A stretch of 64,000 bases of DNA from positions 1 through 64,000 of IMG/VR virus record IMGVR_UViG_3300046652_000008; one strand, written 5' to 3'. Position 1 is the stretch's first letter. Each line of letters starts with the position of its first letter. Positions 6,488 through 26,793 of the stretch are shown here, piece by piece. Position numbers and translations under genes: made by a program. The notes beneath the pieces were generated by a model that was not told the origin of the DNA, did not search any database, and saw nothing but the letters and a program-made list of their open reading frames with translations. The DNA is from a virus.

Positions 6488-8022
6488 TGGGTGTTACCAG
6501 AGATTGTGGCTTTGCCAGAAATAACGCGAGTCGAGGTTTGCGCGGCGTTGATTGTAATACTGAATCCGGTTGGTGCTCCTGCTTGCGCGCCGGTCGCGTT
6601 CGTGGCGGTGGCGCTAATGGTTGAGGTGGCCGCCGTGGTTGGCGTGCCGCTGAGAACTCCTCCGCTCGATAGACTAAGCCCTCCAGGAACTCCAGTGGCC
6701 GTCCAGGTGATCGGAGTATCGCCCGTCGCCGCGAACGTGATCGAATAGGCCGAGCCTACCGTGCCTGCCGTGAGCGGTGATGTTGTGGTGATCGTCGGAA
6801 CTGTCCCGCCTGCTGAGATTTCAAAAGCCCCGGCGTCAGGGGCCGAACCTTGCGGCCTGGTTGTTCCGTATATGTCCGTGGCCGGATAGTTAGTTGGGTT
6901 CCCGGCATCCTTGGCGCATGTGTCGGAACTCTGAAGGGATGGGTTGGGCTGCACCCCTCCGACTGCCGGAGGAGAAAGCACCCACGTTGGGGTACAGCGT
7001 TTCGTGCTGGTTCCGCAGGTTGATCCACCCGACGCCGGGAAGATGTTATGATCCGCTGTTCCAGAGCCGCAAGTGCCGATTTCGCTGACAAATACGTTTC
7101 CTCTTACTATATAGGCAGACCCGGTACAGCCCGCGTCATTATTTACTGACGCGAAATCTATGTCGTTATATTGTATGATAACTCCAGAACAATTACCACG
7201 ACCAATCACAAGGTTATTTCCGGCGACGTATGGAGCGCCAAAATAGTTGTTTTGAATGATCCAAGACCCTGATATACCTTCAGTCATTATGTTGCTTGTA
7301 GCATTATTGTAAAAGATATTTCCGTCGATCAGGACATCGCTAGAACCTGGATAGTTCTGGAAGCCGTCCACATGCTGCCCTCCTGGACACGATCCAGAGT
7401 ATATGTCGGTTGTGATCCAGTCATGCACTATGTTGCTTTTGAATATGAGATGTGTTGGCTTAATTGCCAATTCAGGACCCCATCCCCAGAAATCAACAGC
7501 ATCCTCCGAGTTCCCCGCAATGCAGCCGTCTCCATTACCAAACTCGGAGTTTTGGACAGTCACTCCAGAAGAGGCTATCCAGGCACTAATACCATGCCAT
7601 CCATCAACAGATATATCCGTGAACTCAACACCAGTTGAATCCTGGATGTTTAAGGCGTGTCTGGCATTCATCCCACTACCCGCCGATATTATGCCAATCA
7701 CATGCACATGATCTATGTTGATAGTTAAATCGCCTGTCAGCAGGACCGAGCCGTTCGACTCCGCATAGTAACTTATGGCAGACGATTTCTGTGAAGAGGA
7801 AAGGGTCTGCGCCCCATACGTTCCGTTCTTGACGACGACCGTATCCCCAGCACTCGCCGCTGTTTGGGCGGCTTGCATGGAGGTACACGCCTGCGCGTCG
7901 ATGTACGAGCCCGGCGTAGATTGGCGTGTGCATGTACCTCCGTTGGTGTCAACCCACAGGTTTGCCGTGGTTGGCTGAGCCATGGCACAGGCTGCTAACA
8001 GAAATAGAGATATAATCCTCAT
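6484..8022 (-). CDS. secreted right-handed beta-helix protein with C-terminal He_PIG/Ig-like domain
   Basis: 512 residues with a signal peptide (MRIISLFLLAACAMAQ). Residues about 20-330 form a parallel beta-helix (SAGDTVVVKNGTYG, VHVIGIISAGSG, VEFTDISVDGWHG, VLIDGNIFYNN). An LWVDTNGG and DAGAFE pair at the two ends is common in pectate-lyase-like proteins. Residues about 405-495 match a putative Ig domain (PLTAGTVGSAYSITFAATGD...GGLSLSSGGVLSGTPT, the He_PIG pattern). The C-terminal peptide ISGKATISGNTQ resembles the VISGNAVV segment of the 3099-5489 product, hinting at a shared assembly or sorting tag. Confidence 0.83.
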   Translation of the reverse strand: MRIISLFLLAACAMAQPTTANLWVDTNGGTCTRQSTPGSYIDAQACTSMQAAQTAASAGDTVVVKNGTYGAQTLSSSQKSSAISYYAESNGSVLLTGDLTINIDHVHVIGIISAGSGMNARHALNIQDSTGVEFTDISVDGWHGISAWIASSGVTVQNSEFGNGDGCIAGNSEDAVDFWGWGPELAIKPTHLIFKSNIVHDWITTDIYSGSCPGGQHVDGFQNYPGSSDVLIDGNIFYNNATSNIMTEGISGSWIIQNNYFGAPYVAGNNLVIGRGNCSGVIIQYNDIDFASVNNDAGCTGSAYIVRGNVFVSEIGTCGSGTADHNIFPASGGSTCGTSTKRCTPTWVLSPPAVGGVQPNPSLQSSDTCAKDAGNPTNYPATDIYGTTRPQGSAPDAGAFEISAGGTVPTITTTSPLTAGTVGSAYSITFAATGDTPITWTATGVPGGLSLSSGGVLSGTPTTAATSTISATATNATGAQAGAPTGFSITINAAQTSTRVISGKATISGNTQ

Positions 8023-21268: not shown

Positions 21269-21297
21269 GTTTCAATCCACGCCCCCCGTTGGGCGAC
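21269..21297 (-). ncRNA. solitary type I-C-like CRISPR repeat in the ssb leader
   Basis: Read on the plus strand the 29 nt begin GTTTCAATCCACGC and end GGGCGAC; on the minus (transcribed) strand they begin GTCGCCC and end GCGTGGATTGAAAC. Type I-C repeats have exactly this 5' GTCGC start, a short GC stem, and the 3' GTGGATTGAAAC handle. Here the stem is CGCCC/GGGCG with an AACGGG loop, about 3 nt shorter than the usual 32. Only one copy is seen, with no spacer array or cas gene. It lies 29 nt upstream of the ssb ATG inside a transcribed leader. Solitary repeat units in phages are known RNA anti-CRISPRs; that function is inferred here. Confidence 0.6.
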
Positions 21298-21303
21298 TAA
21301 CGC

Positions 21304-21507
21304 TTATCCCTCAAACTCGCCGAACGGATAACCGATCACACTCTTTAGTCTAGCAAAGTCTTCAGCGGCTATGGTCGCAGTTAGACCGTTTGTGCAAACC
21401 ACGCTAACAAGTTCCTTTTCTGTCTGAGCGCCTATTACCTCGTTAGCGTCAATAGTCACGCAAACCCCCGAAGTAGAATCCTTGCAGTTAAACCATTTCC
21501 GTTCCAT
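21304..21507 (-). CDS. small hypothetical protein
   Basis: 67 residues (MERKWFNCKDSTSGVCVTID). Two Cys and a small alternating beta pattern (ELVSVVCTNGLTATIAAEDF) are visible. A strong ribosome site (AAGGAGAGACA) precedes the ATG. The start lies inside the last 20 nt of the upstream gene. No family was recognised. Confidence 0.65.
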   Translation of the reverse strand: MERKWFNCKDSTSGVCVTIDANEVIGAQTEKELVSVVCTNGLTATIAAEDFARLKSVIGYPFGEFEG

Positions 21508-26706: not shown

Positions 26707-26708
26707 CA

Positions 26709-26783
26709 TCCAGATGGCGGGATTTGAACCCGCGACCTACTCCCCTATTGGGGAGCTGCTCTACCAGACTGAGCTACGTCCAG
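26709..26783 (-). tRNA. tRNA-like element with shortened anticodon loop
   Basis: D-arm GCTC...GAGC and T-arm GCGGG-TTCAAAT-CCCGC are canonical, the acceptor CTGGACG/CATCTGG pairs with two wobbles and one mismatch. The anticodon arm is CTCCC-CAATAG-GGGAG, a 6-nt loop without U33. No CCA is encoded. The amino-acid identity cannot be read. Confidence 0.5.
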
Positions 26784-26793
26784 ATGTTTATCA

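Follow-up and report, generated by a model that had tools for sequence, protein, structure and literature searches.

The question raised by this locus is whether a solitary CRISPR-like repeat in the leader of a phage ssb gene could act as an RNA that occupies the Cas proteins of a type I-C system. The 29-nt repeat-like unit, GTCGCCCAACGGGGGGCGTGGATTGAAAC when read on the minus strand, occurs once in the window, the 64,000-nt stretch of viral DNA that was analysed, with up to three mismatches allowed, and matches were found in 0/100 shuffled sequences; likewise, GTGGATTGAAAC occurs exactly once in the full 94,919-base virus record. The unit is intergenic, in a 63-nt gap between a 67-aa ORF and ssb, starting 6 nt past the TAA of the former and ending 28 nt ahead of the ATG of the latter, and all three elements are on the minus strand (Table 1). 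No second repeat or spacer was found within 100 bp, nor any adjoining cas genes among the neighbourhood ORFs examined; what is present is a single intergenic copy, as in a solitary repeat unit, and not an array or mini-array of at least two repeats with a spacer. The initial annotation, which had described a single copy without spacers or cas genes between a gene stop and the ssb ribosome site, is therefore borne out, and so is its assignment of the repeat ends to type I-C, as exact I-C ends are found and lie far from chance (the pattern GTCGC-N(3-12)-GCGTGGATTGAAAC is expected 6.9e-6 times per 94.9 kb, counting both strands). No sigma-70-like promoter was found beside the unit, and consequently its expression would need operon read-through; no known acr or aca gene was identified beside it. 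Elsewhere in the same phage (G000), a TnpB/OrfB_IS605 gene is located at 75721-76929 (L002:15721-16929), outside the window, and a tRNA-like gene with an anticodon that ARAGORN could not assign is found at window positions 26708-26784, in a cluster with tRNA-Trp, -His and -Asn.

Table 1. Features at and around the repeat-like unit in the ssb leader (positions in the window)
Feature	Position	Strand	Basis
ssb, single-stranded DNA-binding protein, 130 aa	20848..21240	-	PHROG 44, E 2.4e-25
ssb ribosome-binding site GAAAGAGG, kept in the relative L004	21249..21256	-	alignment
Block of about 43 nt holding the unit, absent from L004	21262..21304	-	alignment
Solitary type I-C repeat-like unit, 29 nt	21269..21297	-	sequence
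11-nt crRNA handle-like segment TGGATTGAAAC; predicted Cas5c cut immediately 5'	21269..21279	-	sequence
3' stem arm GGGCG	21280..21284	-	predicted fold
Shortened loop AACGGG, 6 nt	21285..21290	-	predicted fold
5' stem arm CGCCC	21291..21295	-	predicted fold
67-aa ORF upstream of the unit, no known family; also in L004, without the unit	21304..21507	-	

The predicted RNA fold of the unit consists of a 5-bp stem (CGCCC/GGGCG) and a 6-nt loop, at -9.1 kcal/mol, followed by the free handle UGGAUUGAAAC. The central GC stem described earlier does exist, but its extent had to be corrected to these 5 bp and 6 nt; it is modest, and the fold energy is ordinary relative to shuffled sequences (z -1.05). 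Besides the I-C 5' end and the stem, the unit has an exact 11-nt handle, which is the length of the 5' handle of I-C crRNA (PMC5965380), and hence both the repeat hairpin and the handle are retained, as expected of an RNA anti-CRISPR (Racr). Array repeats of 32 and 33 nt have about 3-4 nt more around the loop; with its shortened loop, the unit does not have the normal length of an I-C repeat.

A search for I-C repeats matching at the handle, suggested as a check, was positive: the last 20 nt of the unit are identical in array repeats of two Acidobacteriota genomes, G071 (33-nt repeat, in an array located at the end of a contig) and G264 (32-nt repeat, degraded mini-array), and deleting about three nt from the stem and loop of the acidobacterial repeat would give the unit. 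I-C repeats within three mismatches of a 32-nt form are present in 3/396 Acidobacteriota genomes (G071, G264 and G369), and G369 carries a 21-repeat array and Cas8c on one contig. Upon BLAST with a 31-nt query, arrays of D. vulgaris megaplasmids matched over the full length at 85-88%, and no phage matched over the full length. The exact 29 nt gave no match in the bacterial genome contigs, a looser form gave none in the viral contigs, and no array with precisely the stem-loop of the unit was found. Since the phage helicase has by far its best matches in phages of Tunturiibacter (Acidobacteriota; 3e-74), an acidobacterial host is likely for this phage; the spacers of the acidobacterial arrays did not match it.

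The closest relative found (L004, with a TerL 85% identical) shares both flanking genes and the ribosome site cgaaagagg, and has no unit. Absence extends to the more distant members of the TerL-derived set (L004-L008), all of L005-L008 lacking the unit, and handles with one mismatch are present in a 42% relative, without the hairpin. The unit thus appears to be accessory, either inserted here or lost in L004, and such an indel would be more in keeping with a module for counter-defence than with a leader that is essential. A BLAST of the region against phages gave no match, nor did a scan of IMG/VR with the ssb protein; for other viral units, the contigs with orthologous units are relatives too alike to inform on unit conservation.

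In order to place the unit among similar elements, a class of short repeats was defined by the same end-to-end pattern, which excludes the canonical 32-nt repeat by design. This pattern occurs in 88 viral contigs, compared with 1 for a reversed control pattern. Viral units of at most 29 nt are solitary in 42/45 cases and arrayed in 3/45, and those of at least 32 nt are about evenly divided between the two states. An Eubacteriales MAG (L128) contains a bacterial array of 18 I-C-like repeats that are truly 29 nt long (GTCGCCCCGCATGGGGCGTGGATTGAAAC), and for this reason short length alone is no proof of a solitary repeat unit. The inner stem positions, unconstrained in the search, pair in 95, 92 and 79% of cases versus 56, 70 and 47% when shuffled, values reached by 0/5000 shuffles; C-G, A-T, T-A, G-C and T-G all occur as the first inner pair, and UUCG and GNRA tetraloops are among the loops of the class. 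According to a crude gene call, 40/68 viral units are intergenic, versus 6.5% of random positions, and in 29 of these 40 the next gene is on the same strand; many are located 0-12 nt past a stop codon, like the unit in the ssb leader. In a different phage a second unit lies directly ahead of ssb (L035), and other units are found beside terminase or portal genes (L019, L045, L090), a CI/LexA-like gene (L056) and an HU-like gene (L087). The 57.7-kb contig IMGVR_UViG_3300007351_000481, a phage contig binned to a Desulforudis MAG with Cas8c, harbors apparently three different solitary 27-nt I-C-like units (L097, L106, L117).

The short hairpins are also linked to type I-C systems in bacteria. In a genome scan with N(3-10) spacing, Cas8c was found in 16/26 bacterial genomes with stem-paired short units versus 2/17 with unpaired chance matches (Fisher p 0.0016), these being counts among the matches listed and not prevalences. 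Several of the 16 genomes match via CreR-like elements and not via prophages, and since part of the 16 would therefore represent autoregulators, the association ties the hairpin to I-C and does not thereby prove prophage decoys. Similar short hairpins are found without Cas8c in dispersed elements of termite-gut bacteria (0/4 genomes). These MAGs of Betaproteobacteria contain a dispersed family of about 115 nt (L180:6319-6438 and 6686-6804; L147, L152, L131, L163), with 15-34 copies in three genomes, whose members start with TTCATC, have an I-C repeat-like hairpin plus AT at their end, and are strongly folded (z -4.5).

The unit might alternatively carry a guide, in which case it would form, together with the ssb leader, a crRNA-like RNA steering Cascade to a partly matching promoter and repressing cas or phage genes, as do the CreR-type autoregulatory crRNA-like RNAs (reviewed in PMC12737573). 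Short I-C repeats on chromosomes do have this appearance: solitary ones are found 22-66 nt ahead of cas5c in three genomes (L161:487-515, L207 and L215; cas5c identified with TIGR01876, E about 1e-52) and 418 nt ahead of cas3 (L162:5808-5833). When guides were scored with every sixth position skipped, 8/92 chromosomal units among the matches listed had a match of at least 10 positions, flanked by a TTC PAM, within 800 nt, versus 0.16% of shuffles, and nearby TTC-PAM sites are matched at 10-16 guide positions in L161, L207, L215, L162, L237, L242, L170 and L190/L191. These chromosomal solitary short-loop I-C repeats are likely CreR-type autoregulators, several of them located in the leader of the gene for the processing enzyme itself. 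In contrast, a guide match within 800 nt was found for 0/66 viral units, and none for the ssb-leader unit, in loci that are partial and could have more distant targets. The exact 7-nt seed of this unit with a TTC PAM is absent throughout G000, its 6-nt seed is absent from the acidobacterial cas region, and the matches of viral guides to bacterial I-C loci do not exceed those of shuffled guides, in a set outside which a host promoter could lie. Membership of the unit in CreR was rejected, as there is no PAM-flanked partial match near the unit or a cas promoter, and we regard a guiding role as improbable. The lack of guides in viral units, as opposed to chromosomal ones, is the best evidence that the unit would act via the repeat itself.

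A functionless relic left by the capture of an I-C array or mini-array would agree with the single copy and its absence in relatives, but it would have to combine a loop shortened relative to array repeats with an intact stem and handle, and no remnant of a spacer or second repeat is seen; moreover, the stems of related units change by paired substitutions, which are unexpected from decay, and a relic is accordingly unlikely. We may also hypothesize that Cas5c cutting in the leader controls the translation or stability of the phage's own ssb mRNA in an I-C host, with no titration involved, given that the unit stands 28 nt ahead of ssb on the same strand and that the ssb of the phage in L035 is also preceded by one. 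Nevertheless, related units flank many unrelated genes (L019, L045, L090, L056, L087) and L004 manages without the unit, which makes such control quite improbable. Finally, although the termite-gut elements of about 115 nt have an I-C repeat-like hairpin at their end and are found in genomes without Cas8c, it is exceedingly unlikely that the unit is a copy of these or of another CRISPR-unrelated dispersed hairpin, since the conserved 85-nt upstream module of that family and its other hairpins are missing from the phage insert of about 43 nt.

We thus favor, with a probability of roughly 0.7, the reading of the unit as a candidate type I-C Racr, a short-loop variant that would compete for Cas5c and Cas7. 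This reading draws on the exact I-C ends and stem, the 20-nt acidobacterial identity, the accessory indel, the class evidence and the lack of a PAM-matched guide, and in addition on the precedent of RacrIC1, the Desulforudis contig, the tracking with Cas8c and the second unit before ssb in L035. Against it count the lack of a nearby promoter, the modest stem, the lack of an acr or aca neighbour, the absence in L004-L008, the lack of a spacer match, the exact 29 nt being found in no searched bacterial genome, and the existence of some short-hairpin genomes without Cas8c. Its basis, namely sequence, solitary state, strand, indel, relatives, class covariation and guide absence, was observed; we infer the transcription, cutting, titration and host of the unit.

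In type I-C systems, cutting of the pre-crRNA by Cas5c leaves a handle of 11 nt at the 5' end and a hairpin at the 3' end, on which one Cas5c stays (PMC5965380). By analogy, the unit would be transcribed within the early operon and its RNA would fold into the I-C repeat hairpin, which host Cas5c would bind and cut at the 3' stem base, between 21280 and 21279. Cas5c would thereby remain on the hairpin end of the upstream operon RNA, which would hold Cas5c and Cas7, while the ssb mRNA would start with the 5' handle UGGAUUGAAAC, a possible assembly site for dead-end complexes of Cas5c, Cas8c and Cas7. Either cut product would divert Cas subunits from true crRNAs, and interference would fail. The initial annotation had proposed an RNA anti-CRISPR effect with emphasis on mimicry of the crRNA handle. 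The related viral units, the covariation of their stems and the lack of a guide favor the RNA anti-CRISPR reading, for which RacrIC1 is a precedent. RacrIF1 is cut by Cas6f, and its upstream hairpin product collects Cas6f and a long Cas7f filament, the 5' handle being largely dispensable (PMC10651486). As RacrIF1 inhibits via this upstream stem-loop product and not via the handle alone, handle titration is one of two possible modes.

Type I-C Racrs are already known, and the short-loop form is a new variant and no new system. Racrs were described in 2023 from close matches to known repeats, and the published SRUFinder rule is an operational cut-off with three thresholds against a known repeat, namely identity and coverage of 90% or more each and a score of 41.1 bits or more. 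The unit falls below this cut-off, with 20 identical nt of the 32-/33-nt repeat, 40.1 bits and about 60% coverage when scored against a 14-repeat panel, as do all but 2/63 related short units against the same panel; the full 17,823-repeat database could pass more of them. Most units of this kind, with stem and handle kept and the loop short, would fail the rule, at least with this small panel, and I-C Racrs may consequently be undercounted. We tentatively suggest, at somewhat less than even odds, that short-loop I-C hairpins are a large and mostly uncatalogued group of non-array crRNA-like RNAs, comprising guide-less phage decoys and guided host autoregulators (ahead of cas5c or cas3). If this is true, the shortened loop would indicate an RNA that functions without the constraints placed on array repeats at the DNA level, and one member of the class, linked to the early ssb operon, would be carried by the phage of the window. 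The requirements of Cas5c can be probed with the natural series of covarying stems and tetraloops, and the lack of guides in viral units, against their presence in chromosomal ones, offers a sequence test to tell decoys from regulators.

Among known systems, the array repeats of the Acidobacteriota G071 and G264 and of the D. vulgaris plasmids share with the unit the GTCGCCC start and an identical 3' stretch of 20 nt (Acidobacteriota) or 18 nt (D. vulgaris plasmids), but they are 32-33 nt long, have a longer stem and loop, and are arrayed with spacers. CreR is likewise a non-array solitary repeat, and the chromosomal I-C examples found share the short loop with the phage unit; however, CreR targets the cas promoter through a guide and is located at the cas operon, whereas the unit has neither a guide nor cas genes. 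RacrIF1 is similar in being a solitary repeat hairpin, with an expected capture of the processing nuclease and Cas7 in both cases if the analogy holds, but belongs to type I-F and is processed by Cas6f, in contrast to the Cas5c processing of type I-C. RacrIC1, from a Bifidobacterium pseudocatenulatum prophage (Camara-Wilpert et al. 2023, PMC10651486), follows acrIC5 in one transcript and inhibits I-C in PAO1::I-C. Compared with the unit by its description, it is also a solitary I-C repeat mimic on the same strand as its operon; unlike RacrIC1, the unit has no recognised acr homologue, is followed by ssb and has a loop shortened to give 29 nt, and both are located just past a small ORF, RacrIC1 11 nt past acrIC5 and the unit 6 nt past the 67-aa ORF.
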